Origin: a virus
IMG/VR virus record: IMGVR_UViG_3300025138_000324
Coordinates: 1 to 25,093 of that record
Direction: 5' to 3' (one strand)
Length of the DNA stretch: 25,093 nt
Position numbers and translations under genes: made by a program. Positions 6,499-23,765 of this stretch are shown in pieces. Every line of letters starts with the position of its first letter. Position 1 is the stretch's first letter. Below the pieces are notes generated by a model. It worked only from the letters and a program-made list of their open reading frames with translations, had not been told where the DNA came from and did no database searches.

Positions 6499-6682
6499 TC
6501 ATTACTGCATGTTTACCAAGTTCGACCAGTCCAAGTATAGAATGGAATGGCCCCTCAAACGCAACAGTCACATCCTCGACATCATGAGTTCGATTACTTG
6601 CCGCCAAGAAGACCATAGTATCATGGCGTTTTCTAAGCTCTTTTAATAAGTTAGATGTAGGTATGTACTCTAAAGGTTCCAT
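6461..6682 (-). CDS. Hypothetical 73-aa protein before the exonuclease
   Basis: I do not recognise a defined domain. The protein reads LLKELRKRHDTMVFLAASNR in its first third and GPFHSILGLVELGKHAVMNG later, ending in an acidic DDEDGPSD. The pattern (short amphipathic helix, beta strand, Gly-rich turn, hydrophobic helix) looks like a folded cytoplasmic protein rather than random coding. The ATG overlaps the stop of the preceding endonuclease-like gene by one base (TGATG), and its end overlaps the exonuclease start, which supports it as a real gene in the replication block. Confidence 0.7.
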   Translation of the reverse strand: MEPLEYIPTSNLLKELRKRHDTMVFLAASNRTHDVEDVTVAFEGPFHSILGLVELGKHAVMNGISDDEDGPSD

Positions 6683-7086
6683 CAGTACCTCAGCTTTCTT
6701 AGATGGGACAGCCGGTCAACTTGTGATTGTCTCATGGCTGAGTTAGGTGGGTATTTACCCGCATGCACAACAATCTTTGCCTGTGCATCCTTGTACTTTA
6801 AATAAGGGATGATTAGTTCCAATACTCTCACCGCATTCTTCCCATATAAAGACCACCTAAATACTGATGCACCTTGCCGTTGATGGGTGGTTACTCTACC
6901 CCCCACTAACTCAGCAGGAACATAGGCAAGGCTGGGGGTCACTGACTCAACCTGAAGAATGGGTGTATTTGAAAAACTCACATAGCCCTCACCATCAACA
7001 ATACCTGCAAGCCATGCCAACTCAATGAGTGTCGGCCCAGCTGTTTCCGATTTTAAACTCTCCGTCAAGGGGACATCGGAAGTCAT
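6682..7086 (-). CDS. LAGLIDADG-type homing endonuclease, single domain
   Basis: The core reads LIELAWLAGIVDGEGYVSF, a clear LAGLIDADG motif (LAGxxDGEG) whose acidic residue coordinates the catalytic metal, followed by VFRWSLYGKNAVRVLELIIP and YLKYKDAQAKIVV, the standard strand-helix pattern of these enzymes. One motif in about 110-135 residues implies a homodimeric nuclease. The frame stays open far into the DNA polymerase gene, so the start is unclear. The ATG at 7086 has no good ribosome-binding site, and a TTG at 7020 is two bases after the polymerase stop. Free-standing homing endonuclease genes often sit beside phage polymerase genes and cut the uninvaded allele. Function is likely; the target is inferred. 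Confidence 0.72.
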   Translation of the reverse strand: MTSDVPLTESLKSETAGPTLIELAWLAGIVDGEGYVSFSNTPILQVESVTPSLAYVPAELVGGRVTTHQRQGASVFRWSLYGKNAVRVLELIIPYLKYKDAQAKIVVHAGKYPPNSAMRQSQVDRLSHLRKLRY

Positions 7087-8854
7087 ATGTTTGACCGCAT
7101 TCACGCATGGCTTGTACCGCAATCCTGCCGACATTGTGACCTTCACTTTCCATGGCCTCGAACTGAACTTCGTCATGTACATGCATGACTTGCTGTGCAA
7201 ATACTCCATCAGCTTTGATCTTCTCATTCATGAGTATCGTTGCCTTCTTCATAAGTATACTACCAGCAGACTGAAGTAACAGGTTAAGTGCTGAGTGTTC
7301 GGATCTAATCGGCAACCTGCGTCCGTCAATAGCAGGTAGCCAATCCTGTGTTTGAAGTCTGTTACTGATTGCTGACTTAAGTCTCTTGAGAGCAGGGATA
7401 CCATCCTCAAGCATTCTCTTCATAGTACTCCCTTCACGTCTTCCACCCCCTACGAGCTTACCTACAAGAGCATCCCCAGCACCATAGAGTGTGGCATACA
7501 TAATGCCCTTACCTACTGACCTAGACACTTTCATCTTGTCAGCATTGAACTGGTGTATGTCACCTTCCATGATCACTGATGCATATTCACCATCATCCCA
7601 CCTTGCCAGATAGTGGGCTAGGCAACGTAGTTCTAGTCCCGCCATATCACATCCAACCATAACCATGCCGGGTGTGGGTTTGAATAGTGCACGGCATTCT
7701 TCACCGAATGGGGATCCAATAGCAGGAACTTGTGCAAGATTAGGTCTTGAGTGTGAGCACCGAGAAGAGATAGTTCCAATGGTGTTGACATGCCCATGAA
7801 TGCGACCATCCCTAGATGCTCTGATCCATGACTCTTTGCCATCACTGAGCTGACCAATCCGCTTACATATAGTCAAGTAACGAGACAGTACCTTAGCTTC
7901 AGGGTAAGGTAAGTCAGATAATACTGACTCATCTACCTTTGCTCGCCCATCACCAGTCATCTCAGTAGGCTTCCATCCATACTGCTTGATGAGTGCATTC
8001 GCAATCTGCATACGACTGCCGGGGTTAAAGGGTACTACTCTCTTCTTCAATGGCCCCGGTATCAATCGACGTTGGATGTTGTAGGGTGCATCTTTCTTTC
8101 TGACATACTTAGCAGTAGTATCAGGGTCAGTGTAGAACTGGGGTGTCTTCATTGGTTCTTCTTGAGCAGGAAAGATCTCTTGGAGTTTCGCTTCAATCTT
8201 TGTCTTCTCACCGATGAGTGACGCATGCAATATAAAAGCAGCCTCCTCATCAAATTCGACACCAACGGCTTCCTGTTCAAGGATGATGTCTCGGAAGTCC
8301 CGCTCCATTTCGTAGACATCTGCATTGAATGTCCTCTCAATTAAGTGCCACAGCTTTGTGTTGACTAGAACATCTTTCTCACAGTAATCAGCCATCTGTT
8401 CTGTGAACTCTGACCAGTCTGTCTGTTTACCAAAGTCACCCTTATGGGATCCAAGACGATGGCCCCATGCCTCAAGAGAGTAACGGCCCCGTAAGTTGCC
8501 GGGCATCTTCTGGTTCTGAAAGTCTTTCTTCATGATGTCCGGGGCCATGATCCTACTGGCAAGTAAGGTATCTACACTTGCAGCATTATTCAGATTCAGT
8601 GAGGGATATAGCTTCTCAAGTGCAGGGATGTCAAACTTATCTATGTTGTGACCAATCAGCCTGTCAGCCAGACTGAGTTGGGCAAGAGCAGTCTTGATGT
8701 CGCGGCCATTGCCATAGCTGTCCGAGTAGATTGCTGAATCACCTGTGTCTGGGTTGAGCACAGCAATACAGTGAACAACCTCAAGGTCACTAAGTTCATC
8801 CCAATCCATAATCGCGTTCGTCTCAATATCAAATATCAGTTGGTACATAGCCAT
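7022..8854 (-). CDS. DNA polymerase, family A (T7 gp5-like)
   Basis: The 610-residue replicative polymerase has an N-terminal 3'-5' exonuclease domain (FDIETNAI near residue 8, LIGHNIDKFDIPALEKLYP near 85, DYCEKDVLVNTKLW near 155) and a C-terminal polymerase domain. Motif A is MVGCDMAGLELRCLAHYLA, motif B is KGIMYATLYGAGDALVG and motif C is VMHVHDEVQFEA, carrying the two catalytic Asp residues. It is shorter than T7 gp5 (704). I could not judge whether a thioredoxin-binding loop is present. The start lies 26 bases inside the preceding small gene, and the end is overlapped by the frame of the LAGLIDADG gene. Confidence 0.96.
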   Translation of the reverse strand: MAMYQLIFDIETNAIMDWDELSDLEVVHCIAVLNPDTGDSAIYSDSYGNGRDIKTALAQLSLADRLIGHNIDKFDIPALEKLYPSLNLNNAASVDTLLASRIMAPDIMKKDFQNQKMPGNLRGRYSLEAWGHRLGSHKGDFGKQTDWSEFTEQMADYCEKDVLVNTKLWHLIERTFNADVYEMERDFRDIILEQEAVGVEFDEEAAFILHASLIGEKTKIEAKLQEIFPAQEEPMKTPQFYTDPDTTAKYVRKKDAPYNIQRRLIPGPLKKRVVPFNPGSRMQIANALIKQYGWKPTEMTGDGRAKVDESVLSDLPYPEAKVLSRYLTICKRIGQLSDGKESWIRASRDGRIHGHVNTIGTISSRCSHSRPNLAQVPAIGSPFGEECRALFKPTPGMVMVGCDMAGLELRCLAHYLARWDDGEYASVIMEGDIHQFNADKMKVSRSVGKGIMYATLYGAGDALVGKLVGGGRREGSTMKRMLEDGIPALKRLKSAISNRLQTQDWLPAIDGRRLPIRSEHSALNLLLQSAGSILMKKATILMNEKIKADGVFAQQVMHVHDEVQFEAMESEGHNVGRIAVQAMRECGQTYDFRCPLDGEFKIGNSWADTH

Positions 8855-9026: not shown

Positions 9027-10593
9027 TGAATGGGCTGCTATATTCGTGTAATCGACCAATGGTCGGGTTATATTCTAATGTTGCACACACCCCAGTGATG
9101 CCTGCATATCTATTCTTGAGCACACGCACAGTCGTATTCATTGCTTCAAGCTGGTCTTGCTGGTTACGTTCACATCCTAACACACTGTCACTGAGCTGAC
9201 CAATGGCTGAAGATCCACGTAGCTGACTGAGTGATGTTGCTGCACCTTCCTCATGGCCACGCCCATCAGGACGTTTGAGGTGGGACACCAACACACAGTG
9301 GATGTCAGTCTCCTCGACAAGTGAACGTAGCTTGGTCATAGTATTGTCAATCATCCTACGCTCATCACCCTCTGCTAAGGCAGACACAAGGATGGATAGG
9401 TGGTCGATGAATATGAACTTACATCCAAGTCCCTTGCACATGTATCTGACTTGACCAAGCAATCGTGATGGGTCTTGACTACCCCAGTGATCGTAGAGTA
9501 CCAAGTTACCATCACCCATTACCTCATCGAATGCACTCTTCTTCTCCTCGTCAGAAACGTCAGGCATCTTAGTATGTGGTATGTTCATATGCAAAGCCAT
9601 CAGACACTCAGCAGTTTTCTTCACTGACTCTTCGAGTGCAATGTATCCAACCTTATGTCCGTCGCGTACCAATGTGTAAGCTAGTTCACGACATACTGAT
9701 GACTTACCTATACCTGTACCAGCAGTAATAGTTACCAGTTCACCACCCCGCATGCCCATCAGTGATTGATTGAAACCTTCCCAAGGGTAGGGTACTGACC
9801 AACCACTCTCATCTTTACTGATGTGATCCCAAAGCTCATCACCAGCAATCACCCCATCAGGTCTGAATGTCTTAGCTTGCCAGATAGCTTGAGTTAGTTC
9901 CTCATGCTTTCCTTTCATTATGCATTCGTTAGGATCTTTCTCAGGTAGGCCATGCACAATCTTACACTTACCCGGTGTCAGTAAGTGGGCACATGAGTTA
10001 GCTGCCGCCTTGCCTGCTTCATCCTGATCGAAGCAAAGAACAATCTCTTGGAATGTTTCAAGCCACTCAATACTTCGAGTGATAGCCTTGCTTGCAGACG
10101 CGGCACCATTAGGTATTGAAACCACTGGCCACTTGTTGCCAAACACTTGACTGACTGACAATGCATCAATCTCTCCTTCGCACACAACAACACGCTTACC
10201 ATTAGTCTCCCATAGGTGTTCGCCGAATAAGTTAATAGACTTGGGTTCACCTAGCCATGTGAAGTTCTTCTTGGCATTACGTAACTTCTGAGCACGGAGT
10301 ACACCCTTACTGTCATGGTAGTTGGCAACTTGGACAGCCTGTCCGTTGTACGTACCCTGACCATACTTCCATTTCTTACACGTCTCTAGATTAAGACCCC
10401 GCTTCGTTAGCGGGATGTAGTCAACATCAATCAATCCCATATCAGTAGTCTCCATATCATGTGTGTCACCCTGCTTGTCTCCTTGATATCCGCAACCGGG
10501 AGAAAAGCAGTACTTACTTCCATCAGAATAGACAGCTAAGTTATTCTTGCTGCCACATTTATTGCACGGCTCATGACGCACAAACTCACCCAT
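9016..10593 (-). CDS. Primase/helicase (T7 gp4-like)
   Basis: This 525-residue bifunctional protein unwinds DNA at the fork and makes RNA primers. The N-terminal zinc site is visible as CNKCGS near residue 10 and YCFSPGCGYQ near 29. The TOPRIM primase core has VVVCEGEIDALSVSQ near 133 and IVLCFDQDEAGKAAA near 187. The helicase domain has Walker A in TITAGTGIGKSSVCRELAY and a Walker-B-like KFIFIDHLSIL, then CVLVSHLKRPDG and the QLRGSSAIGQLSD segment before the C-terminus. Length is close to T7 gp4A (566). GGAGG lies upstream of the ATG, and the gene overlaps the resolvase stop by eight bases. Confidence 0.96.
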   Translation of the reverse strand: MGEFVRHEPCNKCGSKNNLAVYSDGSKYCFSPGCGYQGDKQGDTHDMETTDMGLIDVDYIPLTKRGLNLETCKKWKYGQGTYNGQAVQVANYHDSKGVLRAQKLRNAKKNFTWLGEPKSINLFGEHLWETNGKRVVVCEGEIDALSVSQVFGNKWPVVSIPNGAASASKAITRSIEWLETFQEIVLCFDQDEAGKAAANSCAHLLTPGKCKIVHGLPEKDPNECIMKGKHEELTQAIWQAKTFRPDGVIAGDELWDHISKDESGWSVPYPWEGFNQSLMGMRGGELVTITAGTGIGKSSVCRELAYTLVRDGHKVGYIALEESVKKTAECLMALHMNIPHTKMPDVSDEEKKSAFDEVMGDGNLVLYDHWGSQDPSRLLGQVRYMCKGLGCKFIFIDHLSILVSALAEGDERRMIDNTMTKLRSLVEETDIHCVLVSHLKRPDGRGHEEGAATSLSQLRGSSAIGQLSDSVLGCERNQQDQLEAMNTTVRVLKNRYAGITGVCATLEYNPTIGRLHEYSSPFNDA

Positions 10594-10984
10594 ATTCAGT
10601 TACCTCCAATTGAATGCACGGTTCATCTCCATATTCTTTACGTGCAAGCACGCTGATTATTTGATCATCATCAAACCATAGGACTCTGTTCAGAACATCC
10701 AATGTCTTCAGGTAGTTGTCGATATCCCCACGAGGAGCGACCTTCTTTGTCTTCTTCGGACGAGGACAGAAGAAGGTCACATCCAAGTGAAGGGGACCGC
10801 TGAAGGGTAAGAGTTCTGAGAGTTCAATACCACTGAGAAACTCTGCTGAATCTGTTCTGAACTTAGTGTAGTTCTTCCCATAATACACATGGCCCCGCCT
10901 CGTCACCCGAGGGCGAGAAGCAGGGACAGGTTTAATGGGGAGAGTAAACTCAAAAGTCGCTATCGTGTTGAGGTTCTGGATCAT
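10586..10984 (-). CDS. RusA-type Holliday junction resolvase
   Basis: The conserved part opens FEFTLPIKPVPASRPRVTRR, the typical RusA beginning, and ends with PRGDIDNYLKTLDVLN and VLWFDDDQIISVLARKEYGD, which hold the clustered Asp residues that bind metal in RusA. These enzymes cut branched DNA during recombination and clear junctions before packaging. In T7 this map position (between ssDNA-binding protein and primase/helicase) is held by endonuclease I, an unrelated resolvase, so this looks like functional replacement. The frame is open to 11092, but the extra N-terminus overlaps the ssDNA-binding gene and lacks family likeness. The ATG at 10984 gives 132 aa and normal RusA length. Confidence 0.87.
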   Translation of the reverse strand: MIQNLNTIATFEFTLPIKPVPASRPRVTRRGHVYYGKNYTKFRTDSAEFLSGIELSELLPFSGPLHLDVTFFCPRPKKTKKVAPRGDIDNYLKTLDVLNRVLWFDDDQIISVLARKEYGDEPCIQLEVTEYG

Positions 10985-11555
10985 CGGAGGCTGTGTCTTC
11001 CTTGTGTTGTGATATGAATCCATCAACCTTACCGAAACCGAATGAGTCAAAGTCTGACCCACCAAACTCTTTGAGATCAATAACCTGAACACTCTTCAGT
11101 AGGAGTGTGATACCTGCACCCAGTGCTGGGCTGAACCAAGGGTTGATGTCGTACCCAACCTTGATGGTGCTGCCACTACCGATTGAAATATCATCAGGTT
11201 TGATCATGCCACCACGGCTGTCAAAGATGACTGGGCGTTGTGCCCACTTTGCACCGGGCTTACCTGCCTGTGCTTTCAGTGTGAACTTGAACTCGATCTC
11301 ACCAGTAGGTGCACCATCTTCTTCAACGTGCGTGATAGACAGGGGGTGCTTCTTAACAGTCTTACCCTGCTTCTTCTGTTCAAGATCATGGTGCTCTTCA
11401 TGGATCTGTTGAATGTGTTGAAGGAACTTACCTCCTTCTTCAGCATCCAGCCTGAGCTTAGTCTCATACGTACCCTCAGGATTGAATTTAGTTTCGGGCT
11501 TGGAGATCTTTGGCCAGACCGCCTTGCCTGCTGGTGATGCATAGTTCTTTGCCAT
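10950..11555 (-). CDS. Single-stranded DNA-binding protein (T7 gp2.5-like)
   Basis: This 201-residue OB-fold type protein should coat ssDNA and contact the polymerase and helicase. It begins MAKNYASPAGKAVWPKISKP, contains KVGYDINPWFSPALGAGITL, a conserved block in marine T7-like ssDNA-binding proteins, and ends in an acidic tail (DTASDDPEPQHDSDF) with a final Phe. The acidic tail plus terminal aromatic residue is the hallmark of gp2.5. AAAGGAATAAACA before the ATG is a good ribosome-binding site. It follows the RNA polymerase gene by 12 bases, as in a polymerase-led class II operon. Confidence 0.9.
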   Translation of the reverse strand: MAKNYASPAGKAVWPKISKPETKFNPEGTYETKLRLDAEEGGKFLQHIQQIHEEHHDLEQKKQGKTVKKHPLSITHVEEDGAPTGEIEFKFTLKAQAGKPGAKWAQRPVIFDSRGGMIKPDDISIGSGSTIKVGYDINPWFSPALGAGITLLLKSVQVIDLKEFGGSDFDSFGFGKVDGFISQHKEDTASDDPEPQHDSDF

Positions 11556-11567
11556 TGTTTATTCCTT

Positions 11568-13952
11568 TCAGGAAAAGTAATAGTGAGCCTGTTTAACTAG
11601 CGATATATCCAAATCGCCTTGGGGTGGTGGCTCAGGTAGGTCCACCCCAGATGGTACTAAATATTTGAGTTCGTTGTAGGTATCTTCGAGGACATTCCCA
11701 GAAAATAAATTGACTGTTGCCTGACGTGCAGCTGCTGCCATGATAGGGACGTTAGGTGCATGTACCTCATAGTTATCGTGGACCATCAGGTAGTCATTCA
11801 CGCCATTGTCTGCTGCGATGTTGATTGCCTCACCAAGTAACCCACCCATGCCGTCAAGACTATGCACCCAGTTAGGGGCCATTGAGTTGACTGACTTTCT
11901 CTTAGATGGTTCACCGTTGTCTTTACGAATACGTGTCTGTCTAATCACGCCGAAGACAGTAGTCTTAATGTTCAGATGTGATTGCTTCTCATAATGCATC
12001 CGTACTGGTAGACCCAGAGGTGTGGTCCATTGAGGAACAATGTCGTTGTCAATACAGATGGCAGCAACATCTTGAAGCCACTCCATACCTTGGCGTGCTG
12101 CATGCACTGACATTCCTATTGCTTCCCATATCTTCTCACCTAGCCAGTTACATGGCTTGTAAGTCTCGTCGCCGAAGGGATTCTCTTTACCTTTCTTTAG
12201 TTCGGCATAGAACCACTCAGCAGTGTAGTTTTTACATGAGAAAAGTTTAGAACCATATGGCTGAGTCATAGTCTGACGCTTGACTGACTTACGATCAAGG
12301 CCAAACTTCTGCCAGCCTGATGCATACTCATGACTACTGTTCTCAATAATCTTTAGAGTGTTCTCTGCAACCTGCCGGTATAGGTCATTGGGATGTTCGC
12401 AGGGTAGGCAGTTAGTTGCGGCTGCACTTGCAGGGTCACGCAGTGCTAATGCATAGAGCTGTAGTCCTTGGTTAGTTGCATCAATCCCAATAGGTAAAGT
12501 AGTCCTGAACTTAGGATTGTCATGCATCTGAGCGAACTCACCACATGCTGCGAGGAAGAACCAAGGTTCATCAGCTTCAGTCCAGTCCATGTAGGTGAGG
12601 GGATCTCTACCCACAGATAGTAGTATCTCTTTGTTGCGTTCAGTCCATGCAATGCGTTGGTCATAGCTTAACTTGTCATGGCCATAACTATTAGCTAGGT
12701 GGATCATCAGCCACTTCGCACCAGTCTCAGTCATCTCCATGCTGTTGGAGAAGCTAAGCAGTGAACGTGCATACGACGGGCCTTGTGGCTGTAAGAAGTA
12801 AGGCTGAGGATAGGCTCTGCCTCTGAAGTCTAGGGTCAGTGGGTAGTACACATCCTGATCTTTGAACTTGTCAGCTAGGCTGAGTACACGCAGGGCATGC
12901 AGACGTTGTGACCTCTGTCGCTCATTGTCAAAGTGTTGCTTAGCTGCACGTCTACGCCACTCCTTACGTGACTCTTTATTCGTTTTAATATCAGCAGGTT
13001 TAGCTGGTAGTGGCTCATCCTCAGAGGACACCAGTCCATCCACTGCTACACCCTTCTCCCAGCAATGCTTCATCACATCAAGAACAAAGTGATTTACTTT
13101 ATATGGTGTAGACTGCACAGCATTAACTGCACGGTAAACCTTCGGCATATCAGCAAGTGCAACGGTGTCTAGGTGTGTCTTATCTGTGGTTTTAATCAGC
13201 GGCCTACGTCTAGTAATATCAGTTGAGTAACCACCAATGAACACATTAGCCCACGCTAAGGGCCGCTCGATCATAGGAAGGAAGACGGGATCTAACCCTT
13301 CCATATATGCGTGAGCACCCTTGAACCAAGTGATCAAATCTTCGGTAGGATCAACCCACTGTTCAGCTTTACCGAATTGATTTTTACGGGCAACAATATC
13401 AATCAACCCTGTTGCCTGCCTCATGAGTTCCAGACACACAATACCTACTCGGATTCTTTCTTCAGTGTTCCACTTGGGAAGCACGATGTCATGAAACCTG
13501 AGAGTCTTGTCGATGAACTTGGCCTTGTTCTGAGTGGACTTGAACCTATCCAATACTCTATTCATCTGTGCCCAGAGGGTTGAGTACTCTTCCTTCAGTG
13601 TTCTATACTTGTACTCATCTTCAACTAAGTTACCTATATGTGCTGCTGTTCCAGTCATCTTCCTGCCACCACTGATTGCATCAAGCGTAGCTCTTGCAGT
13701 CAAGGCAGCTAGAACCTTCACAGGTATCAATTCAATATGATGTAGAGCACGATGCTTCTTACCTGCTGAGTGCTGGGCATGGTGAATCCAGTCCTTGAAG
13801 TGATCAGCCAGTAGCACAATGCTGTTCTGTAATAGCCGCTGACCTGCCGGGTGAGTTGACTCAATATTCAACTCGGTAGCACGAGATACCTTTGAGTGGT
13901 ATCTCTCTCTCCCTCGATCCAACATCTCTTGTTCAAGATCTTGTTGTCGCAT
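11568..13952 (-). CDS. Phage single-subunit RNA polymerase (T7 gp1-like)
   Basis: The 794-residue enzyme transcribes middle and late phage genes from phage promoters. Catalytic motifs are in order: motif A IGIDATNQGLQLYALALRD (Asp near residue 491), motif B KRQTMTQPYGSKLFSCKNY (Lys near 558) and motif C NWVHSLDGMGG followed by YLMVHDNYEVHAPN (Asp near 726). These correspond to T7 D537, K631 and D812. It is about 90 residues shorter than T7 RNA polymerase and ends YYFS rather than FAFA. GGAG lies five bases before the ATG. The gene begins 17 bases after the integrase stop, so it probably shares the early transcript with it. Confidence 0.96.
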   Translation of the reverse strand: MRQQDLEQEMLDRGRERYHSKVSRATELNIESTHPAGQRLLQNSIVLLADHFKDWIHHAQHSAGKKHRALHHIELIPVKVLAALTARATLDAISGGRKMTGTAAHIGNLVEDEYKYRTLKEEYSTLWAQMNRVLDRFKSTQNKAKFIDKTLRFHDIVLPKWNTEERIRVGIVCLELMRQATGLIDIVARKNQFGKAEQWVDPTEDLITWFKGAHAYMEGLDPVFLPMIERPLAWANVFIGGYSTDITRRRPLIKTTDKTHLDTVALADMPKVYRAVNAVQSTPYKVNHFVLDVMKHCWEKGVAVDGLVSSEDEPLPAKPADIKTNKESRKEWRRRAAKQHFDNERQRSQRLHALRVLSLADKFKDQDVYYPLTLDFRGRAYPQPYFLQPQGPSYARSLLSFSNSMEMTETGAKWLMIHLANSYGHDKLSYDQRIAWTERNKEILLSVGRDPLTYMDWTEADEPWFFLAACGEFAQMHDNPKFRTTLPIGIDATNQGLQLYALALRDPASAAATNCLPCEHPNDLYRQVAENTLKIIENSSHEYASGWQKFGLDRKSVKRQTMTQPYGSKLFSCKNYTAEWFYAELKKGKENPFGDETYKPCNWLGEKIWEAIGMSVHAARQGMEWLQDVAAICIDNDIVPQWTTPLGLPVRMHYEKQSHLNIKTTVFGVIRQTRIRKDNGEPSKRKSVNSMAPNWVHSLDGMGGLLGEAINIAADNGVNDYLMVHDNYEVHAPNVPIMAAAARQATVNLFSGNVLEDTYNELKYLVPSGVDLPEPPPQGDLDISLVKQAHYYFS

Positions 13953-13969: not shown

Positions 13970-14995
13970 TTATATTAGCAGATCATCAATGTTCGTGCAG
14001 GACTCCAGCTTACTGATGTCATCTTGCAGCCTCTCAGTATTCAGGTGAGTGTACCTTTGAGTAGTAGACAGATCTTTGTGACCAGCCAACTCCTGTATAC
14101 GCCTGAGATCTGAACCATTCTGACTCAACCGAGAACAGAATGTGTGTCTCATTGCATGAAGTATATCACCTTTACCCATGCCAATAGAGTTGCGTACACC
14201 ATGCCACTCCTTGCAGGCAGCATCATAGTTCATGCTGAAGTACCAGTTATTAGTATCAGTTGATGCCAACAACTTATGCACCCGGCTTGTCATAGGTATT
14301 GATCGAGCAGCATTGTTCTTAGTCTCACCTTCATGTAAGACAATCATGTTCTTGTCAAGGAACACATTGCCTCGGGTTAATCCAAGAGCTTCACTGATAC
14401 GCATGCCAGTATCAAAGAGGATAACAATCAACCTAAAGAACTCAGGATTATTGTTAGCCTTGCATGCTTCAAGAATCTTACGCTGCTCATCTTCGGTGTA
14501 CCAACGGAACCTAGTAGGTGGTTCACCTTGTCTAGGTATGTGAGGTACAGTTGTTAGATCCTTACGTCTTGCAGAGTGATGCAGTACTACAGAAATAATA
14601 CTCAGCTTTCTGTTGATAGTACCCGAGCTGTTACCCATGCGCTCAAGACTGATTACATACTGATCAAGTACATCTGTTGTTATGTCAGTAAGTAAAGTCT
14701 CATCACCGATGTCCGCACGTACCTTGTTAAGTCTGTTCTTCGTAGACCTAGCTGACTTCTGCTTAGACCATTTGAGTTGCCACACTGTGTCAGCAACAGG
14801 ACCAAATGATTTTCCCTGTATAGTTTCAGGTTCAGGATCAGGATCTACGTCAGGACTAAGACCCTTCATCACCCTAGCTTTAGCTTCAACCTCCCAAGCT
14901 AACGCTGCTTCTTTAGATGGTTTGTTACGCCGGTAACGCACACCACCATGAACAAAGTCCACCTGAAATGATGAACCTCTTACTCGTATAGTCAT
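13970..14995 (-). CDS. int: Tyrosine-recombinase integrase
   Basis: This site-specific recombinase would insert the phage genome into a host attachment site. The N-terminus (MTIRVRGSSFQVDFVHGGVR) looks like a small arm-binding domain, followed by a SAM-like core-binding domain (TDITTDVLDQYVISLERMGN). The catalytic domain has the first Arg in FDTGMRISEALGL, Lys in EGETKNNAARSIPMT, the HxxR box in HAMRHTFCSRL, the second His in ELAGHKDLSTTQ and the nucleophile in RYTHLN, so the R-K-H-R-H-Y set is complete. GGAGG five bases before the ATG at 14995 fixes the start, although the frame extends to 15040. Its place upstream of RNA polymerase matches integrase-bearing marine T7-like phages. No excisionase or repressor was recognised in this window. 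Confidence 0.93.
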   Translation of the reverse strand: MTIRVRGSSFQVDFVHGGVRYRRNKPSKEAALAWEVEAKARVMKGLSPDVDPDPEPETIQGKSFGPVADTVWQLKWSKQKSARSTKNRLNKVRADIGDETLLTDITTDVLDQYVISLERMGNSSGTINRKLSIISVVLHHSARRKDLTTVPHIPRQGEPPTRFRWYTEDEQRKILEACKANNNPEFFRLIVILFDTGMRISEALGLTRGNVFLDKNMIVLHEGETKNNAARSIPMTSRVHKLLASTDTNNWYFSMNYDAACKEWHGVRNSIGMGKGDILHAMRHTFCSRLSQNGSDLRRIQELAGHKDLSTTQRYTHLNTERLQDDISKLESCTNIDDLLI

Positions 14996-15008
14996 ATCTA
15001 CCTCCAGT

Positions 15009-15251
15009 TTAATGATCGTCCCCAACAAATACTTTGTCACTGTGCTTATCCATCAGCTCCATGAATGTGTCAAGCTGACCACACTTGTTTAACTGATAGC
15101 ACATCTCTTCAGCGAGATCTTCACACCCTTCATCGCACCAGTCTTGAACAAAGTGGCGTGCTATTACTCGTAGCTTACCTCTCTTCAGCCATCGCAAGCA
15201 TTCGTTGAGTGGTTTAGTTATAGATACTTTGTAGTCTTCAGGGTTCTTCAT
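15009..15251 (-). CDS. Hypothetical 80-aa protein upstream of the integrase
   Basis: No family was recognised. The protein begins MKNPEDYKVSITKPLNECLR, has a basic patch (LKRGKLRVIARHF) and an acidic, Cys-containing middle (DWCDEGCEDLAEEMCYQLNK), and ends in DKVFVGDDH. It appears helical and soluble. The ATG overlaps the stop of the 48-aa gene by four bases (ATGA), and the stop is 13 bases before the integrase start, so it is translated in the same chain. A regulatory or directionality role for integration is conceivable from position alone, with no sequence support. Confidence 0.7.
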   Translation of the reverse strand: MKNPEDYKVSITKPLNECLRWLKRGKLRVIARHFVQDWCDEGCEDLAEEMCYQLNKCGQLDTFMELMDKHSDKVFVGDDH

Positions 15252-15394: not shown

Positions 15395-15930
15395 CGATTA
15401 CCTTTCTGTTTAAATTTTTTAGCAGTAAATTTGCCGACAAGTTTAGTCTGTCCTGATCTATCTTGGATACGATCAACACCATCAATGCCACGCTGAGATG
15501 AGTTCGGTGCTTCAGGCATATAAGTGACGTTTCTTTCAGAAAAACCTAGTGGCATTTCAGAACCTTCAGGTAGAACAAAGAGATGGAATTGATTAGCTTC
15601 ATCTACCTTCCTTGACTCTTCAGGATATAACTCAATAGCTATCCGTTCTTCACCAGCTATTTGATTCTTGATGTCCTGAAACTCACGCCAGTCATGTCGA
15701 GAAGATCTATCTTCATTCCTGATGCTGATGTAAAGCCAACCAGTTTCATTTCGAGTGAGTCCCTTATCAGCTACTTGGATCAGATACTTACGTGATGCAT
15801 ACCACCTAAGTGTTTTCCTCCACTCATAATTAGGATCTTCGGGAGACAGCTCATCTTTCATAGCTTCCGTTATCTCTTCTAACTTACCAGCACAACCAGC
15901 AGTACGGTCACCATATTTATTATCCATCAT
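15391..15930 (-). CDS. Conserved phage protein of unknown function, 179 aa
   Basis: The middle block (residues about 65-125) reads GWLYISIRNEDRSSRHDWRE, then FQDIKNQIAGEERIAIELYP, ESRKVDEANQFHLFVLP and PLGF. I recognise this as a block seen in many phage hypothetical proteins (HDWREFQxIKNxIxGxExxAxELYPxESRxVDxANQYHLWV), of unknown function. The C-terminus is basic (KFTAKKFKQKGNR). AAAGGATCTA precedes two adjacent ATG codons (15930 and 15927). It overlaps the preceding gene by 11 bases and the following one by four. Confidence 0.8.
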   Translation of the reverse strand: MMDNKYGDRTAGCAGKLEEITEAMKDELSPEDPNYEWRKTLRWYASRKYLIQVADKGLTRNETGWLYISIRNEDRSSRHDWREFQDIKNQIAGEERIAIELYPEESRKVDEANQFHLFVLPEGSEMPLGFSERNVTYMPEAPNSSQRGIDGVDRIQDRSGQTKLVGKFTAKKFKQKGNR

Positions 15931-18367: not shown

Positions 18368-18559
18368 TCAAGAGTGACAGTGTCCATCAGTCTCTATGCC
18401 TAGCGTCATACGCACACCAGTCTCATTACTACTCACCTCAACCATTACACAGTCATCGAAGGATAATGACCAAGGTTCAGATACATTGTCCCACTGTCCA
18501 CCATTACTTTTCTTGAGTGACTCAACCTTCTTAGCTTGCTTATCAGTCATCGTTGTCAT
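18368..18559 (-). CDS. Hypothetical 63-aa early protein
   Basis: Not recognised. The N-terminus is basic and helical (MTDKQAKKVESLKKSNGGQW), followed by strand-like segments (EPWSLSFDDCVMVEVSS, TGVRMTLGIET) and a His/Cys end (DGHCHS). Its ATG overlaps the lysin stop by four bases (ATGA). A second in-frame ATG is at 18550. It is coded tightly between two conserved genes, which supports it as real. Confidence 0.68.
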   Translation of the reverse strand: MTTMTDKQAKKVESLKKSNGGQWDNVSEPWSLSFDDCVMVEVSSNETGVRMTLGIETDGHCHS

Positions 18560-18939
18560 AGGTGCTTACTCACTTTCTTCCAGTATTTAAGTGTAGCTTT
18601 CTTCTTGTGACCATTAGGGCCACCATTCCATATGCGAGCTGCTGCTTCATCATATGGCATGCTGCCTATACGCTTAGGCTTTGCATATCTTGCAAGGTAA
18701 GCCCTGAATATCTTGAGTGAATATTCAAGGCCATCACAGTCAGAGTACTCTCCACCTATTGAGTCATTGTACTCCACTGCATCTGTCCAGCATCCTCGAT
18801 GGATCTGCATAGGGCCAATGGCATCACCATTATCACCCACAATACCTGATGCAGTACTCCCACTAGATTCCACCATATGTACTGCTTTCTCTAGTGGACT
18901 TAGATAGATTGCTGCTGCTGCTAGGAATATACCTACCAT
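18556..18939 (-). CDS. Secreted lytic transglycosylase-like lysin
   Basis: The 127-residue protein starts with a short hydrophobic stretch (VGIFLAAAAIYL, residues 2-13), then LEKAVHMVESSG with the likely catalytic Glu at residue 24, GDNGDAIGPMQIHRGCW, and later AARIWNGGPNGHKKKATLKY. The order Glu-Ser-Ser-Gly, GxxGPxQI, and (A)xRxWNGG is typical of goose-lysozyme/SLT-type muramidases that cut glycan strands. The N-terminus may be a signal-arrest-release anchor or weak signal peptide, and two Cys (HRGCW, YSDCDG) could pair in the periplasm. The start has AAAGGAGGTGAACC. No T7-type amidase gene lies between the resolvase and helicase, so this may be the endolysin. It lies in the early region, far from the holin, which is unusual. 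Confidence 0.8.
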   Translation of the reverse strand: MVGIFLAAAAIYLSPLEKAVHMVESSGSTASGIVGDNGDAIGPMQIHRGCWTDAVEYNDSIGGEYSDCDGLEYSLKIFRAYLARYAKPKRIGSMPYDEAAARIWNGGPNGHKKKATLKYWKKVSKHL

Positions 18940-19945: not shown

Positions 19946-20356
19946 TCAGCCGTTGTATACACGTACAGACTTGGCATCAGCCTTATCAATTGCACCTGAT
20001 GCTTGACGTACAGCCGTGATCGGGTGTCCTGTAGTCTTATACAGAGTCAACCAACCTTGAGCATTTCGCTGGCTACCACCCGGATACCCACACCGAATAG
20101 AGCCTGACCCATCGATCTCAGCCAATTCAGTCAGTTCATCTACAGCCACCAACCACGAAGCGTGGACCTTGCTAAGTGTAGTCGCTGCCCCTTGCCAGAC
20201 TTCCTCAGGAACCTTCACACCAAAGGCCCTAAGAGCATCACACTTTACATTATCCGCCCACGCTTTAGCTAAAGCCTTGCCTAGATTGTCGGTAGACTTT
20301 ACAAACGTCTTAAGCTCTTCAGAAGTATGGACATTGTTATCAATTACAGTAGACAT
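19946..20356 (-). CDS. First early gene, 136-aa hypothetical protein
   Basis: This protein starts MSTVIDNNVHTSEELKTFVK, has a helical N-terminal half (NLGKALAKAWADNVKCDALR, EEVWQGAATTLSKVHASWL) and a Gly/Arg-rich C-terminal half (SIRCGYPGGSQRNAQGWLTL, ITAVRQASGAIDKADAKSVR). I do not recognise the family. It is the first gene after the noncoding control region and is bracketed by terminators on both sides (20405-20460 and 19888-19924), so it is a single-gene transcription unit. That place resembles T7 gene 0.3-type host-takeover genes, but there is no sequence match to support a specific role. AAAGGG is upstream of the ATG. Confidence 0.75.
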   Translation of the reverse strand: MSTVIDNNVHTSEELKTFVKSTDNLGKALAKAWADNVKCDALRAFGVKVPEEVWQGAATTLSKVHASWLVAVDELTELAEIDGSGSIRCGYPGGSQRNAQGWLTLYKTTGHPITAVRQASGAIDKADAKSVRVYNG

Positions 20357-20404
20357 ATTTACCCTTTCAGAGGTAACAGTATTAAAGACCTACCCACTAT
20401 GGAT

Positions 20405-20460
20405 AGAAAAAGACCCAGCCCCTAAGCCAAAGGTTTGGCATTATTAAAGGAGCCGGGCCG
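20405..20460 (-). terminator. Intrinsic terminator upstream of the first early gene
   Basis: On the minus strand GGCCCGGCTCC pairs with GGGGCTGGGTC (three G-U pairs), enclosing a second small stem (GCCAA/TTGGC), followed by TTTTTC. It lies only about 50 bp before the first early ATG and downstream of the possible promoters, so it either ends read-through from the packaging genes or acts as an attenuator on the leader. Confidence 0.8.
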
Positions 20461-20509
20461 CTTGAGTCTACGCCGTTCCATTAAGCGTAGTTGTTTATTT
20501 ATACAGGAC

Positions 20510-20532
20510 TCCCCTTTAGTACACCTACACCA
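20510..20532 (-). promoter_or_regulatory. Possible phage RNA polymerase promoter
   Basis: The minus strand reads GGTGTAGGTGTACTAAAGGGG then AG. The core TACTAAAGGGGAG resembles the T3 promoter core CACTAAAGGGAGA. It would give a transcript of about 110 nt ending at the 20405-20460 terminator. No second convincing copy was found in the window, so this is tentative. Confidence 0.3.
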
Positions 20533-20895
20533 TATAGGCTTAGATGCTTTATTGAAGTCTACGTACACGGTGCGCCATTGCTAAATGCATACCCGCTACG
20601 ATTACTCTGCCAGACCGCTCCCCTATTTATCGGGGTAGTCCTCACTGGTCAGAATAGGGGCTAGGTTCTACGCAAATCGGGAGCTACGAGCTAGCCAATA
20701 AGGGCATATATTTACCGTCTACACTGTCACGCAATTGCGTACCATGCTTGTTATTTTTCCTACTCTCAATCTCTGGTACACATTGCACGTCCTGAGTGCT
20801 CGCAATGCTCCAAAGTGGGGCCAACAATTTCGCCCGTCGTAGGTTTTCCGATCAGTGTTTGCCAGTCCGAATGACTGCCAATTACTACATCGGCA

Positions 20896-20924
20896 ATTAT
20901 CCGCGAAATACTTGAGCACGTAAA
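20896..20924 (-). promoter_or_regulatory. Possible host sigma-70 early promoter
   Basis: On the minus strand TTTACG (20924-20919) and GATAAT (20901-20896) are separated by 17 bases and point toward the early genes. The match to TTGACA/TATAAT is partial. Position, not strength of match, is the main support. Confidence 0.3.
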
Positions 20925-20959
20925 CCCACTTCACCGATATATATTTCGGAAAGTAACGT

Positions 20960-20982
20960 AAGTCCTTTGCTGGTAAGGACTT
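20960..20982. other. 8-bp stem hairpin next to an AT-rich tract
   Basis: AAGTCCTT and AAGGACTT form a perfect 8-bp stem around a 7-nt loop, directly followed by an AT-only run (20981-20993) and a further AT-rich part to 21002. There is no T-run in either direction, so it is not a standard terminator; it could be part of an origin or a processing signal. Confidence 0.6.
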
Positions 20983-21022
20983 AAAAATTTAAGATTTAAT
21001 ATGAGCGACCTACGTTCACAAG

Positions 21023-21055
21023 TTATCCACAAAGTTATCCACTGAATTATCCACA
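21023..21055 (+). repeat. Three DnaA-box direct repeats at 12-bp spacing
   Basis: TTATCCACA at 21023-21031, TTATCCACT at 21035-21043 and TTATCCACA at 21047-21055 all lie on the plus strand, with starts exactly 12 bp apart. Two match the strict DnaA-box consensus TTATNCACA and the third differs in its last base. An inverted degenerate copy (CGTGGATAT) is at 21076-21084, and an AT-rich tract lies about 20 bp to the left. The arrangement resembles an iteron or DnaA-dependent origin. Confidence 0.8.
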
Positions 21056-21182
21056 AAATGAGCGTAGTCTATCCGCGTGGATATTAGGTATATCAGCTCA
21101 TTGAGTGTATGTGGTGGAGTAGGGGCTATATGAGGGCGTCTGATAGTGAGTGAGTAAACAGCAACAAAACACCCCACCACAC

Positions 21183-21214
21183 ATTCAAACAAGCGTTTGA
21201 AACAAGTGTTTGAA
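21183..21214. promoter_or_regulatory. Operator-like dyad cluster, left
   Basis: TTCAAAC-aagc-GTTTGAA (21184-21201) is a perfect 7-bp dyad with a 4-base spacer. It overlaps a second dyad, TTGAAAC-aagt-GTTTGAA (21197-21214), with one mismatch. The 20 bases 21183-21202 are the exact reverse complement of 21339-21358. The form suits a dimeric helix-turn-helix regulator; CAAAC-N4-GTTTG resembles operators of TetR-family proteins such as PsrA. Confidence 0.6.
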
Positions 21215-21232
21215 TATGTGAGGAGTGTACAT

Positions 21233-21325
21233 ATGAGAATGAGTCTCAATAGCTATCGGTGGATCCGGTATCCGTTGGAAGGTCCGATAATGATGAAAGA
21301 ATGGACATATTGTTATCGGACGTGA
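21233..21325 (+). CDS. Possible 30-aa plus-strand peptide
   Basis: An ATG at 21233 is preceded by GAGGAGTGTACAT, a strong ribosome-binding site, and opens a 30-codon frame starting MRMSLNSYRWIRYPLEGPIM. It is the only plus-strand frame in the window with such a site, and it lies between the two operator-like dyad clusters. Its 3' part overlaps the inverted repeat TCCGATAA/TTATCGGA (21282-21320). It could be a leader peptide, a small regulator or chance. No good promoter was seen. Confidence 0.3.
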   Translation: MRMSLNSYRWIRYPLEGPIMMKEWTYCYRT

Positions 21326-21338
21326 CATCGGGCGTGAC
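21315..21338 (+). repeat. Tandem 12-mer repeat
   Basis: ATCGGACGTGAC (21315-21326) is directly followed by ATCGGGCGTGAC (21327-21338), 11 of 12 bases identical. The period of 12 equals that of the DnaA-box array. It abuts the right operator-like cluster and may be a protein-binding site. Confidence 0.6.
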
Positions 21339-21374
21339 TTTCAAACGCTTGTTTGAATCAAACGTTTGTTTGAA
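21339..21374. promoter_or_regulatory. Operator-like dyad cluster, right
   Basis: TTCAAAC-gctt-GTTTGAA (21340-21357) is a perfect dyad, followed by TCAAAC-gttt-GTTTGAA (21358-21374), giving two abutting sites. The first, with one flanking base on each side, is an exact inverted copy of 21183-21202. Two paired clusters about 150 bp apart would suit cooperative binding or looping. Confidence 0.6.
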
Positions 21375-21411
21375 TCGACCCCCTACGGGGAAAATTTGCC
21401 GGGACCCAATA

Positions 21412-21441
21412 ATTATACCCTGTCAGATTTTTTTATCTGAA
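21412..21441 (-). promoter_or_regulatory. Possible sigma-70 promoter with consensus -10
   Basis: On the minus strand TATAAT (21417-21412) lies 18 bases after TTCAGA (21441-21436). The -10 is perfect and the -35 is weak. It would start just after the last right-end gene and run through the control region toward the early genes, where T7-like phages keep their host-polymerase promoters. Confidence 0.3.
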
Positions 21442-21714
21442 TTATTGCGAGATGTTCTGGCAGGGATTACGGTCACAAATAGCAGTAACAGCAGTGACAC
21501 AGCACTTAGGTATAGAATTAACATTTCCAAATGTATCATCATCAACGTCCATGCTCCTTGTGCCAGCAACAACAATGTAGCTTTCACTGTCAAACAGCAA
21601 GTAACCAATAGTAACCATAGGACAGGGCTTCACATCAATGGCCTCATCTGAGGTCATCCATGCACTATCCCCATGTCCAACAGTATCAGTCCAGTGAACG
21701 AGTACTAAGTCCAT
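21442..21714 (-). CDS. Hypothetical 90-aa protein at the right genome end
   Basis: The protein reads MDLVLVHWTDTVGHGDSAWM, PCPMVTIGYLLFDSESYIVV, AGTRSMDVDD and FGNVNSIPKCCVTAVTAI. Alternating hydrophobic residues suggest a small beta-rich fold, and the GYLL...VVAG...IP-C-V pattern is one I have seen in short phage proteins of unknown role. The ATG overlaps the stop of the preceding gene by one base (TGATG). It is the last gene before the control region. In T7 the comparable spot after the large terminase has the small gene 19.5, but no similarity is claimed. Confidence 0.75.
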   Translation of the reverse strand: MDLVLVHWTDTVGHGDSAWMTSDEAIDVKPCPMVTIGYLLFDSESYIVVAGTRSMDVDDDTFGNVNSIPKCCVTAVTAICDRNPCQNISQ

Positions 21715-22100: not shown

Positions 22101-23765
22101 TCAGAACCATAGGTCTGGCTTGGGTTTACGACCGACCACTGAACCCATGAAATCCTCTAGTTCTCTCTTAAAAACCATATCCTTCCTTGATGCCATCTGC
22201 CGGTCAGCATCCTGAGCCATTTGTTCAGTCCAGTAGTTGACTGCCATTGCCAATACATCTAACCTATCATCATGAGCCAGTGAACCACGTTGTCGTGTAA
22301 TCCTGCTCATCTGGTAGAAGAGTTGATACTTAAGTGCCTTCTCAGGTGGTAGATGGCGGGTACTGTCATAGTCCTGTTCAATCACCTTCTTATTGATAAT
22401 CAGCTTATGCTGGTTCATAACCGGCTCTAAGGTATCAATAATCCGTCTTTCTTTCTGTGTACTGTGCCTAACTTCCTCAATACTGACCTTGTAAACCTTT
22501 GACAGTACAGGAGTTAGCAGTGCTGTGAACATACCATCACCGAAGTTAGACTCAATAAGTACCTTGTTGACCTGTTCCTTCTTAGCTATTTCGGACAACC
22601 TTTGAAGAGCTTTGTCCTCATATCCCCCTTCAATGCCACCGGCATCAGTAACCACTAGGAATCCATTGAGCATCTTGACAACAGCATACGCAGTTTCATC
22701 AGCACCTCTACCTGAGGGGTCAATAGCTAATACTGACCCAGTAAACTTCTGCCAACTGCCTGCCACCTCAAACGGCTCATAATACCTATCACCAGCTAGA
22801 CCTACACAGGGCACATCATTCAGTGCTCTATCCTTGTCAGCCATCCATACAACCTTCTCTGGCCCCATGTCACCGCTGATGTTCATCACAACAAGGTCAG
22901 AAAGCCTTAGTGGGTAACGACTTACGTCACTCAGGGTAGCATCCAGCATGAACTGTAGGGCAAAGCCGGTACGTCCATAGGAAGCCTCACGCTCTAATAG
23001 GTCTTCACTGTTGAATCGTGCGGGATCAACAGCATCCCCTCTAGAGGTCTCAGGCTGCTCTGTAAGAGCCTTGATGAGTGGAGATAGGGTTACACCCATT
23101 CTATTCTCTTGGCTCTCAGAAGGGATCCTAGCAGGCCATACACGAGTTTGATATCCTCTCTCAGTCAGGGAGGAGTAGATACTCATCTCAGTCTGAGGGG
23201 TTCCTAGGTAGATGATGTGACCATCAGGCTTGAGAACAGCATCAAACTCTTTAATTGCTTCTAATAGTTTATCTCTAGTAGTCTGAGTGGCCGAATTATT
23301 CAGGGACTCAATGTCATCAGCAACGATTAGGTCTGCCCGTGAGCCTGTAATCGCGGATGAAATTCCCTTCGATACAACTGATGGAGCATGGGATGCAGGA
23401 GCTGGTCCTACATCGAATGCAATCTTAGAGTTCCTCTGATCGTCATGAGGACGAAGATGCTCTAAAATGGCCATATCGTTGATCAACCTGAGGGTAAATG
23501 TCGAGAAATCATCCGATCTTGCTTTTGATGCAGACACCACCAAGATGTTCTTAGAGGGGTCTAGGAGAAGCTGGTGACAGACATATGCTGAAGTAATCCA
23601 AGACTTACCGACACCTCGGAAAGCCTGTACGACTCTACGCTTAGGCCCATTCTGCACATAGTCAGCAATGTCATATTGAACCGGCGTGGGGTCGGGTAAG
23701 TTCAGGTGCTTCCAGCACAAGTAGAGGAAGTTCCTGAAGTCCTTGAGTGTCTCCTGAGTGGTCAT
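22101..23765 (-). CDS. terL: Terminase large subunit (T7 gp19-like)
   Basis: The 554-residue packaging motor and nuclease has an N-terminal ATPase domain with RRVVQAFRGVGKSWITSAYV (Walker A, RGVGKS near residue 48), ADLIVADDIESL (Walker B with the catalytic acidic pair) and IIYLGTPQTEMSIYSSL (coupling motif). The C-terminal nuclease has VLAIDPSGRGADETAYAVVK, KVLIESNFGDGMFTALL and LAHDDRLDVLAMAVNYW with the metal-binding Asp residues. These match T7 DNA maturase B in order and length (586 in T7). It starts by ATGA overlap with the Q/G-rich gene. Confidence 0.96.
   Translation of the reverse strand: MTTQETLKDFRNFLYLCWKHLNLPDPTPVQYDIADYVQNGPKRRVVQAFRGVGKSWITSAYVCHQLLLDPSKNILVVSASKARSDDFSTFTLRLINDMAILEHLRPHDDQRNSKIAFDVGPAPASHAPSVVSKGISSAITGSRADLIVADDIESLNNSATQTTRDKLLEAIKEFDAVLKPDGHIIYLGTPQTEMSIYSSLTERGYQTRVWPARIPSESQENRMGVTLSPLIKALTEQPETSRGDAVDPARFNSEDLLEREASYGRTGFALQFMLDATLSDVSRYPLRLSDLVVMNISGDMGPEKVVWMADKDRALNDVPCVGLAGDRYYEPFEVAGSWQKFTGSVLAIDPSGRGADETAYAVVKMLNGFLVVTDAGGIEGGYEDKALQRLSEIAKKEQVNKVLIESNFGDGMFTALLTPVLSKVYKVSIEEVRHSTQKERRIIDTLEPVMNQHKLIINKKVIEQDYDSTRHLPPEKALKYQLFYQMSRITRQRGSLAHDDRLDVLAMAVNYWTEQMAQDADRQMASRKDMVFKRELEDFMGSVVGRKPKPDLWF

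Follow-up and report, generated by a model that had tools for sequence, protein, structure and literature searches.

We have found three DnaA boxes, set in direct orientation with their starts exactly 12 bp apart, in the non-coding late/early junction of a T7-type phage genome. T7-type phages are the textbook case of independence from the host replication initiator. Similar arrays stand at the genome ends of some lytic T7-type phages, and boxes at the same step occur at the ends of many T5-like phages. Tentatively, and with somewhat less than even confidence, we read the array as a docking site for host DnaA, active early in infection and placed at the leading genome end, and not as a replication origin. 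The presence of DnaA arrays at T7-type genome ends, in lytic phages suited to the laboratory and in this temperate one, hints that such phages make contact with DnaA as infection begins, a contact that has gone unrecognised.

The late/early junction and its DnaA boxes

The window, by which we mean the whole stretch of DNA analysed (an IMG/VR record of 25,093 bases), is a T7-type phage genome with its genes on the minus strand, as judged from ORF and profile scans. We describe its source as a temperate, marine T7-type virus of bacteria. The genes that define it (the five with an assigned function come from the profile scans) and the junction are as follows:

7022-8854, minus strand: T7-type DNA polymerase
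10586-11092, minus strand: RusA resolvase
11568-13952, minus strand: single-subunit RNA polymerase
13970-15040, minus strand: tyrosine integrase (Phage_integrase), adjoining the RNA polymerase
19946-20356, minus strand: first early ORF, the downstream border of the junction
20357-21441, no strand: late/early junction, 1,085 bp, non-coding, containing the array; the last late ORF ends at 21442
22101-23765, minus strand: TerL with a T7 terminase RNase H-like domain

In a concatemer or a circularised assembly, the two genome ends are joined at this junction. TerL and two small late ORFs lie on one side of the array, and early ORFs without an assigned function on the other. The original prediction assigned the boxes to the terminal region of an integrase-bearing T7-type phage, and the map bears this out. 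No Rfam family and no tRNA was found in the window, and a search for T-loop fragments that could mark an attP site gave nothing convincing. Sigma70 and terminator scans of the junction returned a promoter count not above expectation, and a search for a phage-promoter consensus found none. Genomes searched by TerL for prophages gave distant matches only, with no clue to the host. Elsewhere in the window, a 181-aa ORF (6682-7227, minus strand) overlaps the end of the DNA polymerase ORF and contains IVDGEGYVSFS, which resembles a homing-endonuclease motif, with no Pfam match to the ORF; an ORF of the early region (18556-18939, minus strand) has a sub-threshold match to Destabilase (lysozyme-like).

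The closest relative with a junction is locus L203 (IMGVR_UViG_3300030060_001692; 38,146 bp), whose RNA polymerase is 96% identical to that of the window. The array and its immediate surroundings comprise the following features:

20959-20983, no strand: hairpin with a 9-bp stem and a 7-nt loop, TAAGTCCTT-TGCTGGT-AAGGACTTA
20981-21002, no strand: AT-rich run TTAAAAATTTAAGATTTAATAT, about 22 bp, with about 20 bp between its end and box 1; a weak candidate for an unwinding element
21010-21019 and 21058-21067, no strand: imperfect inverted repeat, CTACGTTCAC / ATGAGCGTAG, enclosing all three boxes in the minimum-energy fold
21023-21031, plus strand: DnaA box 1, TTATCCACA, perfect; no canonical counterpart in L203
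21035-21043, plus strand: DnaA box 2, TTATCCACT, 8/9, 3 bp after box 1
21047-21055, plus strand: DnaA box 3, TTATCCACA, perfect, 3 bp after box 2; present letter for letter in L203, at the edge of the conserved block

TRF reports one 12-bp tandem repeat, at 21020-21057, and the only two perfect copies of TTATCCACA in the whole record are both within the array. With at least three near-consensus boxes at permissible spacing, the array qualifies as a predicted DnaA-binding-site cluster under the spacing rule of E. coli DnaA (PMC11317965). The AT-rich segment about 20 bp from the boxes and the hairpin that had been predicted to accompany them are both present, and L203 too has an AT-rich tract on the left-hand side of its one box. 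The region folds no better than shuffled sequences (z -1.0), and the inverted repeat around the boxes may be a chance occurrence. A degenerate inverted box had also been proposed at 21076-21084. The sequence there, ATATCCACG, is indeed a 7/9 match, but we give it no weight because it matches at 7/9 only and is absent from L203.

Chance, coding status and close relatives

Under a first-order Markov composition with sites assumed to be independent, arrays of this quality are expected 1.1e-9 times per window. For any three boxes at exact 12-bp steps, each allowed up to one mismatch, the same model gives an expectation of 2.5e-7 per window, sites again being taken as independent, and one of 300 Markov sequences had any cluster of at least three boxes (at most one mismatch) in 120 bp. 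The predicted arrangement, three direct boxes of which two are perfect, is confirmed by its coordinates, by the TRF period of 12 and by the Markov expectation. Had slippage copied one box twice, the array would call for far less luck than the independent-site figures imply, and the spacers (AAG/AAG/GAA) are compatible with duplication of that kind.

The array is non-coding. It is spanned by a 77-aa ORF with a TTG start (21016-21249, minus strand), and a coding reading was rejected on two grounds: L203 has a stop before the array, and the 20 differences between this ORF and L203 show no bias to the third codon position. The same two observations dispose of the earlier concern that the repeats might belong to a translated protein. 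Two further candidate explanations were tried and dropped. Import from a known phage found no source, as 20563-21060 matched none, and analogy with a plasmid replicon yielded weak plasmid matches only, many of them to non-mobilizable E. coli plasmids of ~110 kb.

L203 aligns with the window at 85-88% identity from 21038 onward and is unrelated to it left of the array until 20562. The conserved part of the junction has this extent:

21038-21290, no strand: non-coding block conserved with L203 at about 85%, starting within the array

Conservation in relatives had been set as a check on the original prediction, and the outcome was mixed. Box 3 is kept exactly in L203; boxes 1 and 2, together with the inverted box, are lost there even though one flank is kept, and no DnaA box was found at the junction of L329, of L331 or of L003/G001, the last a record with a TerL 86% identical to that of the window and with overlapping contig ends. 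Among 80 TerL relatives of the window-type family, DnaA boxes were not enriched downstream of TerL (0.208 per kb vs 0.226 elsewhere), and a conserved family feature was rejected on this ground. With one box in L203, none in the three others and no enrichment, the array is lineage-specific. In a separate T7-type, prophage-like locus of Endozoicomonas ascidiicola (L223), three boxes occur within about 110 bp (15735-15851), at a distance of about 4 kb downstream from TerL; one pair among them has an 11-bp step.

Terminal repeats of T7-type phages

The position of the genome end was predicted from a short motif, AAAAATCTGANNGGNTA. This motif stands immediately 5' of the annotated right terminal repeat in BA14 (39623). 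In the T7 record it stands immediately before 39778, which is the start of the right repeat if the repeat is 160 bp, the length we take it to have. The motif occurs downstream of TerL in most Studiervirinae tested. When one mismatch was allowed in its core, it was also located there in 36 of 85 other loci, the window and L203 included. Loci with the motif in this place are the window, L003, L004, L019, L021, L023, L026, L069, L072, L203, L216, L221 and others. The motif can hence be used to predict genome ends in uncultured T7-type phages. Its copy in the window is:

21416-21430, minus strand: predicted terminase cut-site motif AAATCTGACAGGGTA, the motif that directly adjoins the right terminal repeat of T7 and of BA14

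From this motif, the terminal repeat is predicted to start near 21415 and to run towards the array, whose boxes are 360-392 bp from the predicted start. A cut-site motif 360 bp away would place the array in, or just beyond, the terminal repeat, upstream of the early genes. By analogy with T7, the array end is probably the genome end that enters the cell first.

A blastn search with the array matched three lytic T7-type phages of E. coli/Shigella in the genus Berlinvirus, namely A7 (Shigella), P483 and nasanit (Escherichia), and SEq315 (Enterobacter) was added to them. Their arrays, which are unannotated in their records, are built like that of the window from TTATCCACA consensus units that all lie on one strand, point against TerL transcription and fall in the non-coding stretch between TerL and the early genes. 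Twenty-two of the 30 box-to-box steps in the Berlinvirus arrays are 11 or 12 bp. The window agrees with these phages in place, strand and 11/12-bp steps but differs in copy number, with three boxes against their 7-9 within about 150 bp, and TerL is only about 44-47% identical between the two lineages. In A7 the array is found at both record ends and so lies within the terminal repeat, which is roughly 176 bp long there, and only tens of bp separate it from the cut site, whereas the array of the window is about 360 bp from its predicted cut. The gene table of SEq315, the only one of the four taken in full, contains no integrase. Like arrays in lytic phages, one of them without an integrase, argue that the array is not tied to an integrase or to a lysogenic origin, and the integrase of the window is probably irrelevant to it.

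DnaA boxes are not a general property of these ends. BA14 and ErnstBeyeler, which belong to the same genus as A7 and P483, have CATAAGG repeats in place of DnaA boxes, most Studiervirinae have no DnaA array at that place, and no DnaA boxes were found at the genome ends of T7 and LUZ100. DnaA boxes are on this evidence dispensable for T7-type growth in general. This weighs on the idea that the array is a sink that titrates DnaA away from the host chromosome. Multiple consensus boxes on a genome that is amplified during infection could serve in that way, but there are only three per genome here, a lytic T7-type infection gains little from halting host initiation and congeners do without the boxes, so that we find a sink barely credible.

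After the cut site, many T7-type phages (L244-L323) carry phage-specific units at 10-13-bp steps, such as CCTAAAG, CCTTATG, CTATCAG, CCTTGAG and CCTGCCG. The repeats at the end of T7 itself have CCTAAAG and its variants as their unit and are present in more copies than the boxes of the window. What the two share is a set of short direct repeats, stepped at 10-13 bp, next to the terminal repeat of T7 and beyond the predicted cut site of the window. Repeats of this sort are thus common beyond the cut site; their unit differs from phage to phage, seems to be exchangeable within a genus and is, in certain phages, a DnaA box. When 7-mers after the predicted cut site of the window were ranked, TTCAAAC came first with 4 copies, not above the control margin, and the box array was not outstanding. 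TTCAAAC belongs to palindromes of the form TTCAAAC-N4-GTTTGAA at 21183-21215 and 21339-21375, two copies being a 20-nt perfect inverted pair and their neighbours degenerate. These palindromes sit inside the predicted terminal repeat, the first one is kept in L203, and we take them to resemble operators of PsrA/FadR-type TetR-family regulators.

The main rival to a docking site follows from these repeats. The array may be one more set of short repeats at a genome end that look like DnaA boxes by coincidence, a phage unit that happens to contain TTATCCACA having been multiplied by slippage and being neutral or of use in packaging only. Phage-specific units at T7-type ends, the exchange of CATAAGG in BA14 and ErnstBeyeler for boxes in A7 and P483, the single tandem repeat seen by TRF and the lack of conservation in relatives are all consistent with this explanation. 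The full DnaA consensus together with the preferred 2-3-bp gap is nevertheless found in two lineages with distant TerL proteins and again in T5-like repeats, which is unlikely for an arbitrary unit. A further point against it is that the window holds no more than three copies, which are inconspicuous among its 7-mer repeats. On balance we consider an incidental resemblance possible but rather unlikely.

A second rival assigns the array to the processing of concatemers, with DnaA bound at the junction holding back either the phage RNA polymerase or the packaging motor and so making terminase cut there. T7 concatemer processing involves pausing of RNA polymerase near the junction. The array does have TerL on one side and the early genes on the other, with the predicted cut close by, and that of A7 is within the repeat. 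Most relatives, however, cut at the same motif without DnaA boxes, and the distance from cut to array varies, from tens of bp in A7 to about 360 bp in the window. A role of this kind appears quite improbable.

Box spacing in Escherichia coli, T5-like phages and other viral contigs

In vivo, E. coli DnaA binds mainly to direct box pairs 2-3 bp apart, and one inserted bp weakens binding (PMC11317965). Steps of 11 or 12 bp leave gaps of 2-3 bp, so the spacing of the phage arrays matches the preference of E. coli DnaA. The E. coli double boxes upstream of purH and polA and in DARS2 are likewise direct, with a 3-bp gap (PMC11317965); they are chromosomal regulatory sites with measured DnaA binding, whereas the boxes of the window are predicted sites.

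A search with an idealised array returned 329 phage records, many of them T5-like. The left terminal repeat of T5-like phages carries double boxes (12-bp step) and, at a distance of about 61 bp, a third box; in Spc35 this repeat is annotated as first-step-transfer DNA, entering the host first. The injection stop signal of T5 is described as carrying DnaA boxes, with the suggestion that these interact with host factors and that second-step transfer is blocked in this way (PMC13250531, citing Heusterspreute et al. 1987). The likeness to the window consists of double DnaA boxes 3 bp apart, which in the T5-like phages stand in the terminal repeat that enters first. T5 differs in that it belongs to an unrelated family, has a repeat of about 10 kb and enters in two steps with the A1/A2 proteins; profile scans recognised no A1/A2 genes in the window, whose gene set is T7-type.

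Since the consensus and the spacing recur in independent lineages, host DnaA is likely to bind the array. We propose that DnaA molecules would sit side by side on boxes 3 bp apart at the end expected to enter first, and that the bound complex could form a roadblock or an anchor on the entering DNA, regulate early transcription by the host RNA polymerase, or both. A broader form of this proposal is that unrelated phages with terminal repeats (T7-type, T5-type and this temperate marine phage) have repeatedly placed boxes at 11/12-bp spacing at the first-entering end, where the host initiator would control entry, holding or first transcription and signal the replication state of the host. We put this forward as a speculation that is more probably wrong than right by a wide measure.

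DnaA boxes at T5 ends and short-repeat arrays at T7-type ends are already known. The literature searched contained no paper on DnaA-box arrays at T7-type ends, an absence that is no proof of novelty. For the DnaA boxes long noted in the injection stop signal of T5, the T7-type arrays offer a second, simpler system. With E. coli as the recorded host of P483, nasanit and SEq315, it is open to direct testing, with BA14 and ErnstBeyeler as natural controls that lack the array.

Triples of DnaA boxes with a 12-bp period were found in at least 119 IMG/VR viral contigs, mostly non-T7 and some with 7-10 boxes; the reversed motif at the same period occurred in none. Among the matches listed, no close relative of the TerL or the RNA polymerase of the window was found in these triple-bearing loci (L083-L201). 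RusA and VapE/primase were the commonest known families among 96 proteins flanking the triples, which may well be origins or origin-linked elements, in a setting that is absent from the window.

These loci bear on a function that the original prediction had offered, a DnaA-dependent origin for a circular or low-copy lysogenic state. In its favour, the boxes of the window adjoin an AT-rich run, an integrase is encoded, and some triples in other contigs lie near RusA and VapE/primase. Against this, the array has no Rep or initiator gene nearby, more than 10 kb separates it from the polymerase and helicase genes of the phage, the AT-rich run is short at about 22 bp, the array is not conserved, and lytic Berlinvirus phages carry similar arrays. 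The proposal of an origin is not supported by these observations, and we regard it as very unlikely for the window. The triple-bearing contigs themselves form a sizeable unannotated class of probable phage origins.
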